Shown: positions 3,184 to 26,599 of the stretch, piece by piece
Position numbering within the stretch: position 1 is the first letter of the stretch
Layout of the letters: each line of letters opens with the position of its first letter
Assembly: GCA_900155495.1 (NCBI GenBank)
Contig: FTLJ01000050.1
Span: 62,001-126,000 of the forward strand
DNA: 64,000 nt
Reading direction: 5' to 3'
From: Porogramme epimiltina
Taxonomy: Eukaryota; Basidiomycota; Agaricomycetes; Polyporales; Polyporaceae
Made by a program: the position numbers and the translations under genes
The notes under the pieces: model-generated
The model's database searches: none
Told to the model about the DNA's origin: nothing
Seen by the model: only the letters and a program-made list of their open reading frames with translations

Positions 3184-4589
<1,406 letters not shown>

Positions 4590-7500
4590 TGTTCGAGAGC
4601 TGAGACGAGTCGAACAGAGAAGACTGGATGTCCTGAGGTCTTTCGGCCATCGTCAGACCCTCTTTATACCTCTCGCCCTTGACGCAACACTTCGTGCAAG
4701 CTCTACTGGCCATTACCATATTCGTCTCGACACTGCGGAGGGGCCGCCGAAATAAGCCACGTACCCAATCACAGCCCGTCTATTTTGTCATGAGACGGGC
4801 ATTGAAGCGTTGTGAACTTCAGTACCAGCGGGGCGGACGGGCGACACATCCCAGAAGGTCGGTGTGTCGGCGAAAAGCGCATGAATGGCCAATAGAGTAC
4901 TATCTGGTTGCCCAAATGGGATTGTGAGTGCCCGACGGAACAGGGTGGTGATGATACTCGCACGGAGTCAACGCCCCGGCAAATGTACACTCGTGAGAGA
5001 CAGAAGGCCGGGAGGGAGAGTGGCGGTCTTCGGAAGCGCAGGACAGGAGGTACGAAGGAGAGGAGGCATGGTCACGACCAAGCCCGGTACCTGTACGCAA
5101 TCATTACTGCCACGGTGGAGTGCGCCTGGAGAAAATGTACGCGATAATCCTCAAAACATGATGCAAGTGCTCACCTACTCTCTGGACGTACCGTCGTGTT
5201 GGTGTATCAGTAGACTGCTACGCGAGTGGTCATGAAGATACCGCAATGGTTGGTAAGAGTGGGAAAGGATCATTCCGCGTCAACCAGAAGCAAGGTAGAG
5301 CACGTTGAGCACATGTTGTGCGCTGCCCTCCCGTCATTCGGGGTGACCGAAACCGGAACGTCTCCGCTGATACGAGGCACCTGTCAATTGACAAAGCCAC
5401 AACTGGATGTGATGAGCAACACAGAGCCTATGAAGTATGGTCCTTCAATGCCCAACAACTACTTGCAGAGGCAGAAAGGAAACTGTATTTGGGTCGGAGT
5501 AACCCGGCGGGCCCAAGAGCCTCCGTCGGGACCGCATCGAGCCAAGTGACGCGTCTATTTTGCGCCGTCGACGCCCTTTGCCAAATACTGAGGCAACTCA
5601 CCTCCAGACCAGCATCGCCGGACACTCTATTCTCGGTGTGAGAGCGACCATAACGCCGTATTGATCTAGCGTGCCAGACCACTCCCATGGTTGCCTTACC
5701 GGCAACTGTTCATCCAGCGCCCCGGACGGGGCTCTTTCTCACACATCCTGCCCTGCCCCTCGTTCAAACTCTGTGCTCTAACCTATCTTTTCTGCTGCGA
5801 ACATCATCGGCGCTATGGTCGTGGATTTATTCCTGGCGCAACGCGTGGCATTGAGCTAATTTTAGACATGCTAACCGACTCTGCACGTCTCACCTTGGAC
5901 GGTTCAAAGTTCAGGGACATGTTGTTAAACACCGACACGAAAGTGATTTTGTGGGTCACGAAATAATTGGGCAAGATGGTGGTGGCAGACCAAAAGGAGA
6001 GAGCAGTGTTCCCATCTCCACCAAGACGCGCCTAAGCGTTTGCGATCATCGGCCATCACGTGCGCGTGTTTCTATCTCATCCCGCGACCAGGCCGAAACT
6101 TGCACTGACATCCTCGACTGCGCAGCGACAGGTAGGTGTTAGGATTCCCAAGGTATCAATTTTAAATGTTGCATTCACAGAGCCCATCGATTCCAGAGAT
6201 AACCTCTCGGTATGTTTGAACGATAGAAGAAATTTTCGAGTGACAATCGGACATGTCTTACCAACTTGACCAATTAGTCGCGCAGATTTCCACTGAACCT
6301 AACCCGCAAGTGGAAATTGGTGCAGATAAATAGAGGTCTCTGTATTTCAGGATTTTAGTCAATGGTCAAGGCCAACGGTAAATCATAGCCAACCCAAAGT
6401 CTGCACTCTTCCAACTCATGAGTCATGGATTACCGTTACTAAAATATAGTATGACAGTCCACCTCTGCGCGCCACAAGAGAACCGACTTCGGACGTCTGC
6501 CGCAACAGGACACATGGGCGAATACCTCCCGCGCAAGATGGCATTTTTCCAGTACTAGGCCAATCCATCGAGAGAAATTTTGCCCTCTGGAAGAACGTAC
6601 GTCTCGTTACTCGTAGTTTATGTGGTTCTTGTACGCAACCTGCTCACTCGCGGCTGAACGTGGTGGCGTGAAAAGGCTAGGTATCTCGGGTTCTGAAGTT
6701 CGACCCGTCTAAGTTCATATCCTGGCAATGGGGCATGGGTGTGACGCAGTAAAGCACGTGAACGTTACCTCACGCGTCGTGGCACACACTCGTCCTACCT
6801 TTAGGCGCCTCAACCTCCAGATCCCTCTACGTAACTTTGTTACAAGCAACAGTGGTAGGTTATACGGCATGTCCGATATACCCGATCTTCCCAACTGCTG
6901 CAAAGCAGTGGAACCGAGAAAGCCGTCAGGAACACTCGACGCTGAGTTCAAACCTAGGAATTCAATTTTGCCCAGCGAATACTAGCTGTCACCCCACGGT
7001 GAGTCTTCGCGATACCGTCATGGTTCTTCCTTGGCGTGTTTATCCGTGATCCACACTATCTTACTTTAAGTAATCCCAGCTGTGAAAGGCCCGAAATTTC
7101 GGGTTTAAGGATGGACGTACCGTTGTATATGATGTGAATCGCCGAATTGGCACAACATCAGCTCTAAAAGACTATTTTACTGCCATTGCTGAGTTCCCGA
7201 GATCCAGGTCAGTCATTTTACACGTAGTATTAAATGCAGTAGCACTAATGAGGTTATTTTCAAAGTCATGCATGCGGCACGTAGAGTTGATCCCACATGG
7301 AGGTGCTGCGGCGGACCAGAACCCTCTGTGACCAACCATTTTGTGACTTCTATTTTCGCCCTTGAAGACATACGAAGCTGGTGTCACAGAGGGAGCCATA
7401 GATTCAGCTTATGCATCCGCTGGTACGCAAATACTCTCCCTCGACAGCGTCACATACCCCGTGCTTACTACATCACACGCACCCACGGCTGCCAGAAAAT

Positions 7501-19536: not shown

Positions 19537-19621
19537 GGCGGGACTGTACGTCGACTGAGAGTCCTTCAGGCGTCGGGGGTTACTTGTCCGTGTATGTAGG
19601 GGATCCGGATACAGTCCTGGG

Positions 19622-19627
19622 ACCTGA
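19622..19627. repeat. Target-site duplication, left copy
   Basis: ACCTGA directly before the left inverted repeat; the same six bases follow the right repeat at 25766-25771. Confidence 0.7.
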
Positions 19628-19661
19628 CAGGCCCCATGCAACTCCCGTATATGTTTGTCCG
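19628..19661 (+). repeat. Left terminal inverted repeat
   Basis: Begins CAGGCCCCATGCAACTCCC and ends TTTGTCCG. It differs from the right copy at repeat positions 20 and 26 (G versus C in each). Confidence 0.9.
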
Positions 19662-19977
19662 CGCATTTCATAATCTGATGTCCGCATTAGGAAGGCGACC
19701 TTGTCCGAGTTATCATACTGAACGCCCCCAAAGCGGATAAGCGCTCGTGAACACTGTCCTATTGTTATCATATCCGAGGGGGTAGAGGCATGAGGTGATG
19801 GGCGCTAGATTGATGGCGCTCGCACCGTACGCAATGGTTGTGGTGCCGTGTAATGTATTTACCATCTGAGTTTCGAAATATACGAACATTTATGACATAC
19901 GCGTGCTTGACCACCTGTTCCTCATGCCTGGCTCTGACCACCCCTTCATATGACACCAATCCGCGGCCACCTGCATC

Positions 19978-22900
19978 ATGGACACCATAAGCAACGCAGG
20001 ACAAGTTCGCCGAATACGCAATATAGACTTCTCTGCTCAAGAATTCGAACAGCTCTTACCAGATCAACATAGGAAGATCACTTCGACCACATTGAATGCT
20101 TATGGCGCTTTCATTCAAGAATCTTTCGATAGAAAGATCACGGAAATGGGTGGGATCCGTGACTTTGTCATATTCTCATCCTCCATCGCATCAATGGCAC
20201 TGGGAGAGCTAGTGGACGGAGGAAATGAAGGCTCGATTCAAGAGCATGTTGCTGCTGTGGTATGTCAGACTTAGTTCATTGCTCCGATGCATAGGAAGCT
20301 TACTGGTAGAAATTATAGTGTCCGAATGGCGAAATTGGCGACGTTCTATTGAGGCCTCGTTGGGCTATTCCTCTGTGTGGTGGGAACCCCTCCCATTGGG
20401 TGCTAGGCTGGGTCAATTTCGCTGCAAAGAGCTACGGAATTGTGGATAGTATTCCTGAGCTGAACTCCGCGGCCTGGGCTATTCCTGTAAGCTATACATT
20501 GCACCATATTGATATATACACTCAACGTATTTCTAGACATTGCACTGCGCAGTGAATGGTATTCGACGCTGTGTGGGTGTACAATCCGCTGAGGAGTGGG
20601 AGGATTTCGAACGGGTACTCCAGGCACCTCCGGAAAACGACCTGCAGACAGACAGCTGGTCGTGTGGATTGTTTGTCATGATCGCACTTCGAGTCTTCAC
20701 AAACAATTGGATGGAACCACTTGTAGGGCGTAGTCGTCTTGAGCCTATGCGCCGTGAGGCATTAAAAGCCCTAGCTGATGTTCCGTAAGTTTTGGTATAC
20801 AATTGTTTCAAAAATCGACGAGTGTACTCACTACACATGCAGCTTGCGGGAGACTAGGTCTCGGGCGGCCCACAGAGTTGATGTACCAGACACTTGCGTC
20901 GACTTGCAAGAAGCGGATGGAATACCACAATCCCAAGAAGCCATCTTGGAGCAAGGATCAAGCAGGAAGCGATCACATATGGCCGACTCAAAAGCTATTG
21001 ACGTTGGAGACCGGCCAATGAAGAAGAAACGCGGCCCGCGTCGCACGGAGGCCGACCGACGAGCAGATCTTCAGCGCGACGAATATATTGCTCGTGTGGA
21101 ACCACACTCCGTCGTATGTAAAGCATGCGAAAAAACAATTGGACTCAACAAGAAATCGACGTACGACGGCGCAAACTGGCGCACACATAGATCCAAGTGC
21201 CCCCAGATTACTGGAGTGCTTGTGGTTCGCGGGAAAGCTATTAAAGCACCTCAAGGACCTGTATGTGTCGTCATAGGCATGTTCCAGATTGTAATACTAA
21301 CGGAATATTCATCAGATTCGCCCGGAGGGGGTTAGCGCAATCACACGTTACTTCATCAATACGACAGCAAATCAACAGGCTGAAGATGATGGTTTGGAGC
21401 TAGCTGGATCGTCTAGTGCGCATGTAGATGCTCCATCCACAGGAAGCGCTCGTGATACGATGCATTATGCAACCAGAGTTGAGGTCGCTGTGAGTGTTTC
21501 TCATTGTCAAACGAATATTTCGGTTACTTATCATGTTACAGACACAGCTCATTACCAAGTACACTGTGAAAATCCCTCGAGAGCACCACAACGAGTCATC
21601 CAAATCAAGTGAACATTCAGAAGGTGTCTCTACAGAGGTTCTTGCGATCTGTAAACACCTATGTGGCGACCAGTTCTTAGAGTACATTCTCCGAACCCAG
21701 ACTCGCAGTCTCGGAGGTGTCGCTCCTGCTCTCCGTGCACGCGTCTCGCGCCAACTTTTTCCTTACAAGCCATTCTCGACGATCAAGAGCTTTGCGCCAG
21801 GAAAAGACATTTCCAGTCTACCTGACACGCCTACCAATGGGAACAGAGAGGTAGAGATATCAAAGTGGACCATTTCCGAGCAACGAGAACTCGATTATAA
21901 CCTGAAGGGTTGGGCAAGGTGGCTTGTCAACTTGGAACAGCAATTTGTGAAGTCGACGAGATGCACTGGAACTACAAGCAACACATCGGGTGTCTGTGAG
22001 TTCTGCGCTGCTTTGATGAAGGACGAAGGGTTCATAAAATCATTACGGAGGGTGAGTGTATAATAATTAAACATATTCCGAGTCCTCACGATAGCCATTT
22101 CCTGAGCAGAAGAACAAGGAGGCAGCACTCCCTGAGGCCGAACAACACGAGGTTCACATTAGACGAGAAAAACATGCCCCAAAGACGTTCTTAGGCACGG
22201 AGGCTCGCGACCTCCAGACGAAGATACAAGACCCACTTATCTTCTCCGTCTGGCAGTCCCTCAATCGTAATGACAGCATAGGGACATTCCTCACGCTTTC
22301 TAAACAGGCGCACGATGGGAAGCTTGCCAACCACGATATTTTTGTGCAGCTCTGCTCCGTTCTGTCAGACCAGGTGCGCCGTGCAAGTAGTGAGAACCCT
22401 CGCCTCAAGAATGGCATTCGGTACCCCCGAGACTACCTGAATTTCATGACCGTCATGCGGTCGTATGGAGGTCAATCAGCATCCCAGTACGCAATCCTCA
22501 GTGCCAAGCTTGGAGGGCCTTGTCCCCGCACAATGAGGCAAGTATTCCATCATCTTAGAAAGTACAAAGAGTCTCTAACACTGGAATGATAACAGAAATA
22601 TTGTCCGACGTTCACCAGACTGTCTACATGAACCAAGCCTACACTATGAGAATATGGCTCGCGTAAAGCGTCTTATGGACTCTCTGAAGTACTCTGGTCC
22701 AGTTGCCATAGCTGGGGACTGTACCAAGGTCCGTCAGCGCCTTGCGTACTCCAACGATTTTGGAAGCCACATCTTGGGCTCGGTTCTCCCGCTCTCCGAG
22801 ACCTCTGTGGATGATACGGAGGACATAGATCGCAAGGTTCAAGAGATACTAGACAAAGGGTTATTAGCTAAACAGGTTCGCGCAATTATGGTCAAGGTAT

Positions 22901-25531
22901 GTACTCTAGTTCTTGTGTCGCATTTCACGCTATTTAACACTCAAGATTTATAGATTCCGATCAACGAAATACCTCCACTAGTGATTGGACTTATACCTAA
23001 CAGAGGAGACGAGGATGGGTCTGAAATCCACAAGCTACACCTTGAAATTCTGGATATGGCTGTACAGCTTAAGATTCAAGTTATTTCCATGTCATCGGAT
23101 GGAGCAGCAGCGGAGCGGAGTGCTCAAATGCTCATGGATCACGAACGTCGCGGCAAGCAGGACCCGCTCACGTATTCCTATCTGCGATATGGAGTTTCGC
23201 TTCACGCACCCGTATTCGACACTACTGGCCCTCTAGTATGCGTCCAGGACCCAAACCATGCCATGAAAACGTGCCGCAATCAGATACAACACGGGACTCA
23301 TACTGGGGCCCTAGGACAGGCAGCGCTATTCAACAACCAGCTTGTTCTTTTGCAGGCCTCGGGTGTATCTGGTATGGTTCGCGCAGACGTCGTCAATGTC
23401 GACAAGCAGGACGACGGAGCTGCACGTAGGCTATTCCACGAAGTCGCAATTACTGCAATGACTACTACGGACGAGGGGACAGGGAAAATGTCTATCAAGG
23501 ACGAATTCCTCGGTCTCTTTGTATATACCTGGATATTCAGTGAGCCTATTTACTACTCGTACAGTTTTATTTTGAATGTGTCTCACAATCCTGGTTCTAA
23601 TAGGCCAAGTGTTCGAAGCATGGGGTAACCGGAATATGCACATTAATGACCGTGTCATTGCGGTCATGCGTGCTAGGTTCTTCCTTCATATATGGGCACA
23701 GTATGTCGACAGCATGGCCACCACCTTCCCGGATCTATACAGTCGTTCGCGTTCATTTATTGGTTCTGCGGCCCATCATATACTCAAGAGGCTATGCGAC
23801 TCCTTTGTCCTTCTGGTGCTGGCGTATGCAAGGTACTATCCGGACCAGCCATTCTGTCCATGGACATTTGGCACGGAGTTTGTGGAGCACTTCTTTGGCA
23901 TTGCTCGAATGCTACTCCCAAACTTTACCTATGCCGAGTTCCTCAAGATAATCAAGCACGTCATGCTGAGGCAGCATCTCATTCTCTCTGGAAAGCTTAA
24001 GGAGAAGAAGGAGCGTACATCGCGATCTGGCTACATATTCGACTACGACCCTACACCTCTCACCTCCGACGAAATCAAGAGTGCGCGTGTCGTGATGCCC
24101 AACAAACTATTGGACAAGCTTGTCGAGATCGCGCACACTGAAGCAACTCAGATTTCCCGGCAGCTACTTCGGTTACCTATTCCAGTACTCCCATGGACCC
24201 TCAGCTCTATTGGAGCCAACTCCTCGCGGCGCTCTCGAGCTAAGAAAACTAGCACAGAAGACCCCAGCATTGACGACTCTGATTCTGACTCTGATTCGGA
24301 CGTCGATGAAGCCGAGGAACCCGACGATTTGGACGACCTGGCGATGTCTATAACCCAACTGAACATCTCCGAGCTCGACTCCTCCATTGTGAATGCACGT
24401 GCCGCTGATGCAGCTCAGTATACTGCTCGCTATTCCGCACTCTCTGAGGACTACGAGAACACACTAAATGAGTATCTTGGATCAGATATTCACAGCACCC
24501 CAAACGAATCCATATCTCCTTCCCAGTCTCTCCTCATCCCCCAAGCGTCCACCATGGATCCAGAACGCCTGGTGGTTACTGATGAGCCTCGAAGCAAGAT
24601 TATGCTGTCCGAATCGAAACTTAAGGTCGATATTTCCCTACTCCTCAAGGTACGACATGAGACACAGTCAGGGACATCCACGAGATCGGAAAGACCAATT
24701 TCTGTGAACCCCAAGTTCGCTCTCCATCGCCTCCAGGATCCAGAAGCCAAAATGTCCATCAAGGAGGCCTCTCAGCGTGTACGGGTCGCACAGGCACTGT
24801 CTCCTGATGCATCTGCTGTCAAGGAGAGAAAGACGCGCGAACTCCGTTGGATGGAAACAGCGAAACGAATCAGGGAGATTATTCCCGAGAATGGTGAGCA
24901 GACGAATTTTCTTTTCTTGAGTTATACTTACCTTGTAACCACAGATCTGCCGAATATCGCTACCAAGAATATCAATGACTTGAATCCCCTGCGCATTGGA
25001 TGTGTTCTTATAATAAGAACAAAGGAACGTATATGTCTGGGCATCATTCAAGACTTGTACAGCAAAGGGAGCGGTGGTAGGCACGGCTCAATCGCTCAGT
25101 CATCAACATTCTCTGGAGTATCCAATCTTTCTCTCCGAGTGTATCTCAAACAAGTCGTAGAAGTGCGTGCATCCAAAGCTCTCTACTCATGCTACTAATG
25201 CACAGATATATTTTAGAGCCACAGCAATGGAGATATGGGCGACACATGCAAAGAGCAATACGAGAATGACTCAGACTCCGATAATCCAGACACAGACGGC
25301 GACCAGCCAACTTTTACCTGCAGTCACAAAGGAGGAAAGCTGGTCACTCACTCGTCTTCTAAGCAGATCTTGTACAACTTAGGACCAAATGCTCTCAAGT
25401 TCTCTGACCCGGCGCAAAGGCATGCAATGCTCAAGTCGTATGCACTCGTCCGGTGGCGTGCGCTCACGAAGCCGGCGGTTCGGATACGGATCCCAGGAGG
25501 CCGGCATCCGTCTAGGATTGGGAAGGCATAA
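19978..25531 (+). CDS. Ulp1-type protease / zinc finger / P-like transposase fusion protein
   Basis: Twelve exons give one 1645-aa frame: 19978-20259, 20319-20486, 20537-20784, 20843-21260, 21316-21489, 21542-22051, 22110-22537, 22596-22896, 22954-23539, 23604-24893, 24945-25162, 25217-25531; all phases agree, and the intron at 22538 is GC-AG. Residues about 20-230 form a C48/Ulp1 (SUMO-protease) fold with His120 (NPSHWVLGW), Asp137 (GIVDS), Gln187 and Cys193 (QTDSWSCGLFV). A finger follows: C325-x2-C328-x19-H348-x3-C352. The RNase H-like core has candidate acidic residues Asp784 (AIAGDCTKVR), Asp892 (SSDGAAAERS) and a Glu at 1130 or 1133 (TEFVEHFFGIAR), with DPNHAMKTCRN between, resembling the insertion-domain motif of P-element/THAP9 transposases. 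An acidic Ser/Asp tract lies near 1250. A split into two genes cannot be excluded. Confidence 0.72.
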
Positions 25532-25731
25532 TGTCTTGATGTATTGCTACCCTCGCACACTGCTTGTACACTGTATTATACTGTACTTCGTACGCCATTC
25601 CGACATCTCACATTAACCAAGCTACTTATGTCATGTACATTGGTCATCCGATCACATGACCGACCCTGTCCGAGTTATCATATTTCCGGCCCAAAAGTTA
25701 TCATATTCGAGGCCGATTTCGGGGGTCTTTC

Positions 25732-25765
25732 CGGACAAAGATATAGGGGAGTTGCATGGGGCCTG
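25732..25765 (-). repeat. Right terminal inverted repeat
   Basis: Reverse complement of the left repeat with two mismatches; directly followed by ACCTGA at 25766-25771. Confidence 0.9.
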
Positions 25766-25771
25766 ACCTGA
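25766..25771. repeat. Target-site duplication, right copy
   Basis: ACCTGA, matching 19622-19627. Confidence 0.7.
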
Positions 25772-26599
25772 CCACAAACAGAGTCCGCAGAAGGTGCTAA
25801 TGGTAGCGATCAGATAAGTAAGCTGTCAGCGGGGGCAAAAGGCGGCTGCTCACCTTCCCGCTAGTCAACGTGAGGAGCCCAGGAAGAGCGTCCTAGGCAG
25901 GGGCAGGCGGGGGCGTGGTGAATCATGCGACGTCAGAAGAGCATTCCTGTTGGGGTCAGCGCGTCTTATGCTTGGTCGAAACACCAGACTCGCCCCGCTG
26001 TGGCAGGCCCACTTCTTCGGCGCTTCCGGCCACATCCACCCGGGTCCCGTGCCGCCTCCCCGCATCAAGGCTGTTTTCTGCCTCCAGCCTCTCGACACTG
26101 GTAGGTATCCTAGGACCTGGAGCACCCGCCCACCTATCACATGCGCCAAGATATCTCGATGAGGACAAATGAGAGCTACAGCAGCGCCCCCCGCTGTCAG
26201 ATGTGGCGAGACAAATGCATGTGTGGGTGGGCCCCCGACGCACGCAAATCACACGGAGACTGGCGACCAGTGTCAGTAGTGACGAATGTCTTCGGCATCC
26301 TCGTGTACGACGTCCATGACATCGCTGAGGCGGCAGTGCACGAGGCACGCCAGGGTCGCGTCAGCGTACTGGTTCTAGAGTCTCCTCACAGCCTTCGGAG
26401 AATGGAGCGAGACCCGGAGGTCCGTGCACACAATTGGAATATGTATCCATCCAAATAATCCTTCTCTTTCCTATACTTATGCTACATACAACGCCTGGCA
26501 GAAGCGTTCCGACCCAGCGCAAACAAATACATCGCCGACAGAGGAAGAATAATGACCGAGCGCATTCCACGGCGGTGGCGTGGACGACTCGGTCTTGCC
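25772..26599. other. Intergenic region right of the transposon
   Basis: About 830 bases. Before the insertion this was probably the upstream region of the RING-finger gene; it now also holds the 3' end of the GTPase transcript. No gene seen. Confidence 0.5.

Follow-up and report, generated by a model that had tools for sequence, protein, structure and literature searches.

Relationship to described transposons

Ulp1-type protease domains are already known from several groups of transposons, namely Mutator-like elements (MULEs) and Ginger1 (PMC2836005) and Cryptons, which carry a C48 peptidase (PMC3212892), as the original prediction had noted in general terms. Here, we describe a transposon located at positions 19,629 to 25,764 of a 64,000-nt stretch of Porogramme epimiltina DNA (contig FTLJ01000050.1, positions 62,001 to 126,000; hereafter, the window). 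Its single gene is predicted to encode one protein that joins an N-terminal Ulp1/SENP-type protease domain, a C-C-H-C finger and a P-type transposase, and the element very probably represents a fungal lineage within the P-element superfamily.

The closest parallel in architecture is Ginger1, in which an Ulp1 (or OTU) protease and a transposase likewise share one polypeptide, but the transposase is Gypsy-integrase-like, the protease lies at the C terminus and the hosts are animals (PMC2836005). Unlike the present element, MULEs encode unrelated transposases and Cryptons encode tyrosine recombinases, and in some CryptonS elements the peptidase is carried by a further, additional protein (PMC3212892). 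The Kyakuja-Dileera-Zisupton (KDZ) elements with TET/JBP are likewise fungal DNA transposons with an extra enzyme that acts on host silencing (PMC12730594), although that enzyme is a dioxygenase and not an Ulp1-type protease. P-type transposases, on the other side, are discussed in animals in a P-element review (PMC7776569). The Drosophila P transposase (6p5a/6pe2) has a THAP finger, whereas the protein described here has an N-terminal protease together with a finger of the C-C-H-C type, and at least two of the GTP contacts of P are not evidently kept in the fungal family. The fungal element also differs from P in its terminal AGG...CCT and in a subterminal motif that has the same orientation at both ends. 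THAP9 and the zebrafish P-like elements share the P-type transposase but carry a THAP domain, reside in animal hosts and, to our knowledge, contain no protease. The zebrafish elements resemble ours in their 8-bp duplications and deleted copies, with inverted repeats of 13 bp (PMC7776569) compared with 33 bp here. In the open-access literature, as far as it was accessible, neither a P-like element with a SUMO protease, nor a P-like fungal element, nor an account of a fungal P-like/Ulp1 family was found, though a Repbase entry may exist; the words 'protease', 'ulp' and 'p element' do not occur in the main text of PMC12730594.

Structure of the gene and its protein

The proposed 12-exon gene encoding 1,645 aa was reproduced, running from the ATG at 19,978 to the stop codon ending at 25,531. 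Its 11 introns measure 50-64 nt each, ten of them being GT-AG and one GC-AG. The exons, all on the + strand, are as follows (gene model; alignment as well for exons 2-4, 6 and 8-10):

19978..20259, +, exon 1 (aa 1-94), start of the Ulp1-type domain
20319..20486, +, exon 2 (aa 95-150), protease H120, W121 and D137
20537..20784, +, exon 3 (aa 151-232), Q187 and predicted catalytic C193
20843..21260, +, exon 4 (aa 233-372), linker and C325-C328-H348-C352 finger
21316..21489, +, exon 5 (aa 373-430), variable linker
21542..22051, +, exon 6 (aa 431-600), start of the transposase part, C571/C582/C585
22110..22537, +, exon 7 (aa 601-742), followed by the GC-AG intron
22596..22896, +, exon 8 (aa 743-843), predicted first catalytic D784 (GDCTK)
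22954..23539, +, exon 9 (aa 844-1038), D892 and DPNHAMKTCRN (942-952), VDKQDDGAARRLF
23604..24893, +, exon 10 (aa 1039-1468), E1133 within VEHFFG, acidic linker
24945..25162, +, exon 11 (aa 1469-1541)
25217..25531, +, exon 12 (aa 1542-1645) and stop codon

The protease residues named in the original prediction (H120, D137, Q187 and C193) were all present in the spliced translation and in the alignment, and the DPNHAMKTCRN segment was recovered in the spliced protein. Judged from the sequence, one spliced gene most likely yields a single protein joining protease, finger and transposase.

The N-terminal Ulp1/SENP-type protease domain

An alignment of 40 rows including the window protein was analyzed, in which the protease domain was counted as present when at least 160 of 217 protease columns were occupied. 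The domain was present in 31 of the 40 rows (the window and 30 homologs). The His-Asp-Cys triad and the Gln typical of C48 peptidases were found with conserved spacing (H-D-Q-C) in 27 of these 31 rows, the window included; two of the others have H-N-Q-C, one is missing the cysteine column and in one the Gln is replaced. A profile of eight sequences matched SENP1 (E 2e-6) and yeast Ulp1 (E 0.0068). As the spliced window protein was too long to fold, homologs P0065 and P0016 served as stand-ins for its protease and its core, respectively. The AlphaFold model of P0065 (270 aa, pLDDT 86.6) matched human SENP2 best (E 3e-9), followed by yeast Ulp1 and SENP1, with a NEDD8 protease and bacterial relatives lower, so that both fold and profile place the domain with the SUMO proteases of the C48 type. 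The region of about aa 10-235 is therefore very probably a Ulp1/SENP-type cysteine protease, predicted to be active.

Several observations weigh against this assignment. The window protein scored 16.2 bits against PF02902, below the Pfam cut-off of 20.7, which was passed by P0001 (28.7) and P0010 (22.3) and missed by P0008. A six-frame search of the genome with PF02902, directed at the host's Ulp1 genes, gave 9 matches on four contigs (10 candidates), and the window element was not among them. Nine of the 39 homologs fell below 160 of the 217 protease columns; eight of these hold at most 13, and P0029 holds 133. Some of the low-coverage homologs are marked partial or apparently truncated, whereas P0037 from Rhizophagus may, judged from its sequence, truly be without the domain.

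The pairwise distances of the protease and core parts were correlated (r 0.90 over 30 sequences, the window and 29 homologs; P0027, whose core is incomplete, was omitted), and the correlation held without P0036, P0038 and P0039 (r 0.83 over 27 sequences). None of 2,000 permutations reached r 0.90 or 0.83 in the respective set. This correlation speaks for co-inheritance of the two parts and not for function, because shared descent alone would suffice. In the three sequences left out of the smaller set, the P-like core is accompanied at the N terminus by a very different Ulp1-type domain, with about 15% identity to that of the window protein, which could reflect either old divergence or a separate acquisition.

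The transposase core and its probable kinship with P elements

The predicted catalytic residues of the core are conserved over the 40 rows, D784 and D892 in 37 each and E1133 in 36, which bears out the D/D/E-like motifs noted earlier; they were registered by motif to D230, D303 and E531 of P. Sequence comparison alone failed to connect the core with P. Pfam gave no transposase match for the full protein, the core or six homologs, a PDB profile search gave no match at E<=10, and hhalign of a five-sequence core profile with P reached a probability of 7%, over 24 columns surrounding VEHFFG. We therefore turned to structure prediction. The homolog model showed an RNase H-like core with the helical insertion domain of the P type, as is characteristic of the P superfamily, in agreement with the fold anticipated in the original prediction. 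Because the Pfam, PDB and hhalign tests failed, the kinship with P rests on fold and motifs. These failures count against it, as do the origin of the core model from a 51%-identical homolog and, in a hand alignment, the positions of at least two of the GTP contacts of P given in PMC7776569, K400 lying opposite D996 and S409 opposite H1005; similar residues lie opposite F443/D444 and D528.

The N-terminal THAP domain of animal P transposases was not matched by Pfam in the full window protein or in six homologs. Instead, a C-x2-C-x19-H-x3-C finger lies at 325-352, the residues of which are kept in 35-36 of the 40 rows. THAP domains are described as restricted to animals and absent from fungi in the P-element review (PMC7776569); a fungal P member would thus need another finger, and the THAP feature would mark the animal branch and not the fold family. 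We conclude that the protein very probably contains an RNase H-like transposase of the P type, interrupted by an inserted domain, with D784, D892 and E1133 as its predicted catalytic residues. With both folds seen in homolog models and both catalytic sets conserved, the predicted fusion of a P-like transposase to a Ulp1-type protease is supported.

Element ends and copies in the same genome

Genome-wide searches (41.9 Mb, 926 contigs) identified six two-ended copies, that of the window and those on C643, C262, C855, C316 and C649. These allowed us to define the borders of the element as follows:

19629..25764, +, complete transposon, 6,136 bp, ends AGG...CCT, borders of one kind across the six two-ended copies
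19629..19661, +, left terminal inverted repeat, 33 bp (arm comparison and copy borders)
25732..25764, -, right terminal inverted repeat, 33 bp (arm comparison and copy borders)
19621..19628, no strand, target-site duplication, left copy, 8 bp, GACCTGAC (copy borders)
25765..25772, no strand, target-site duplication, right copy, 8 bp, GACCTGAC (copy borders)

The inverted repeats had been read as 34 bp, and the 34-nt arms at 19,628-19,661 and 25,732-25,765 are indeed present and 94% complementary. However, the outermost base of these supposed repeats covaries with the flank among the copies, so the ends were re-read as AGG...CCT; bases 19,628 and 25,765 belong to the duplication and the repeats are 33 bp. 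The duplication itself had to be corrected from 6 to 8 bp, a length characteristic of the P superfamily and exact in all six copies (CCGAAAGT in C643, GGGCTGAA in C262, GGAGCATC in C855, GTCCGAAG in C316 and GCCCACGG in C649), with chance matches also at length 1 or 3 in three of the six. Judged from its sequence, the window element is apparently a complete, autonomous cut-and-paste DNA transposon.

Two copies are full-length (6,136 and 6,119 bp) and four are short (937-1,332 bp); a protein search of the genome listed no match on the contigs of the four short copies among the 18 candidates scored. The second full copy, C643:1532-7650, has perfectly matched 33-bp inverted repeats (AGGACCCGGG...) and an 8-bp duplication. 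It represents a diverged subfamily with the same gene structure, and its target, read across the border as CCGAAAGTAAGT, resembles the splice donor of a host gene. Spliced alignment of C643 with the window protein gave 722 identities over 1,606 aligned residues. By region, identity was 46% for the protease, 28% for the linker, 54% for the transposase part and 38% for the tail, and the 17 key residues checked were all identical. Nine introns of C643 match those of the window in residue and phase, and that at window aa 372 is offset by two residues in the same phase. Intron 5 was initially read through by the alignment, as one stop codon; 11 candidate splices remove this stop, and among them 3361-3414, which has the best donor, agrees in phase with the corresponding intron of the window. 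We therefore take all 11 intron positions as common to both copies, the fifth having been placed by eye. An extra C643 intron proposed by the alignment at aa 292 lies in a poorly conserved region and was regarded as spurious. Because a second complete copy with like ends and introns and 39 homologous proteins were found, the element represents more than a chance arrangement.

The end pattern, searched with at most one mismatch, gave 49 matches compared with 82 for a reversed-pattern control, so one-mismatch matches were given no weight. The exact matches (16, the control covering the set with up to one mismatch) comprised six facing pairs and four single ends. The single ends C5, C147, C348 and C915 (exact), C95 (one mismatch) and C812 had no convincing partner within the stretches fetched, C5 having one weak candidate with a mismatch. 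A search of the genome for an empty site with joined flanks returned the element's own flanks as the sole match.

Just inside the inverted repeats, a repeated motif was found that may be a transposase-binding site:

19706..19717, +, subterminal motif CGAGTTATCATA, left, candidate transposase-binding site (element position 78)
25671..25682, +, subterminal motif CGAGTTATCATA, right, on the strand of its left counterpart (element position 6043)

Copies C37, C262 and C855 each have the motif 77-94 bp inward of either end, both occurrences reading the same way along one strand. In the other subfamily (C643, C316 and C649) its position is taken by a different block, preceded by a CCTTGTC that is shared (by eye). 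By analogy, the repeats recall the 10-bp transposase sites of the P element (PMC7776569) and are candidate sites here. In addition, AAGCGCYCG, followed about 50-70 bp on by GGCGCT, was seen by eye at window positions 19,739-19,807; this pair occurs within the left-type end in each of the six copies, from both subfamilies, and may be a further binding site or a regulatory element.

Distribution of the fused protein

The protein search identified 39 homologous proteins at E<=0.001, named mostly hypothetical or 'ubiquitin-like protease family'. Sixteen of them cover at least 96% of the query at 31-45% identity, and near-full-length homologs occur in Trametes, Ganoderma, Cerioporus, Mycena, Lyophyllum, Pluteus and Lentinula. 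Profile searches added 25 fresh proteins with the core profile and 26 with the protease profile. Both parts are present in P0051 (1,015 aa) from Exidia, an early-branching agaricomycete, whereas P0037 (1,151 aa) from the glomeromycete Rhizophagus has core and finger without the protease. P0019 from Mycena galericulata has precomputed GNAT acetyltransferase domains and a GNAT-like C terminus, possibly through gene-model fusion with a neighbour.

Alternative explanations

The joined protein could be an artefact of gene prediction linking two adjacent genes. Conservation is lowest in the linker (aa 236-460), at 28% identity to C643, the fifth C643 intron was placed by eye, and several homologs are partial or have one part only. 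Nevertheless, the diverged C643 copy also has the introns that flank the junction, gene models that were deposited separately show the fusion in at least seven genera, and the spliced frame of the window is open across both parts, which makes two genes very improbable. Only slightly less improbable is that the core merely resembles P and comes from a different DDE superfamily (hAT, Transib, KDZ or one without a name). Sequence profiles link it to P at VEHFFG alone and Pfam found no THAP domain; moreover, hAT and Zisupton likewise make 8-bp duplications (PMC12730594) and P and hAT transposases are mutually related (PMC3985635). On the other side stand the P-type insertion domain of the model and the motifs. 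No KDZ transposase domain was among the Pfam matches of the core, though remote kinship could escape Pfam.

The Ulp1-type domain might also be a captured passenger with no role in transposition. DNA transposons often capture pieces of host genes, and the domain is partly or wholly missing in nine of the 39 homologs. Yet all four catalytic residues are kept in 26 of the 30 domain-bearing homologs despite a mean domain identity of 38% (27 sequences), the protease diverges in step with the transposase, and the domain accompanies the core also in Exidia, so we consider a passenger improbable. More weight, though well short of an even chance, is given to a target other than host SUMO conjugates, either another ubiquitin-like modifier or the transposase polyprotein itself. 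The fold class includes the NEDD8 protease and bacterial deubiquitinases, which match too, and the domain has diverged from SENP2 (about 16% identity); however, the first 21 entries of the fold search are all SUMO proteases (SENP2, Ulp1, SENP1, SENP5 and SENP7), and Pfam listed no ubiquitin-like domain in the window protein. Self-maturation was given low weight, as the conserved junction glycine G488 is kept in the protease-less P0037 (cleavage sites were not systematically searched).

Proposed role of the protease

Because the joined protein is found across many mushroom-forming fungi, the protease probably matters to the life cycle of the element. SUMO regulates heterochromatin and repair. 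In the proposed mechanism, the transposase would bind the repeated sites that lie immediately internal to the inverted repeats, cut the element out and integrate it elsewhere, creating an 8-bp duplication. The covalently attached protease would travel to wherever the transposase binds. At these places it would most likely strip SUMO from host proteins of silencing or repair, or from the transposase, and this would promote expression or the completion of transposition. Such local removal, of which silencing escape and repair control are the two variants, has in our estimate an even chance of being the main role of the protease, other targets or self-processing taking the remaining weight. For Ginger, the authors suggested that transposon Ulp1/OTU domains act on repair factors (PMC2836005). 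More tentatively, a largely Agaricomycete P branch might have replaced THAP by a SUMO protease and a C-C-H-C finger, with local SUMO removal by the transposase as a regular and selected part of the life cycle, serving to evade SUMO-dependent silencing or to control repair where the element is excised.

These results assign P-type transposases, with ends that look intact, to mushroom-forming fungi, where database entries for such proteins are mostly labelled 'hypothetical' or 'ubiquitin-like protease' and Pfam leaves their main part unmatched. The pickup of SUMO proteases by MULEs, Ginger1, Cryptons and the P-like lineage suggests that SUMO is a recurring obstacle or tool for DNA transposons.

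Separate occurrences of the finger

The finger region (about aa 283-369) was also matched separately from any transposase, on C639 (L032 and L034), C723 (L033) and C775 (L035). On C723, three or four finger matches lie in tandem, which suggests a wider fungal finger family.
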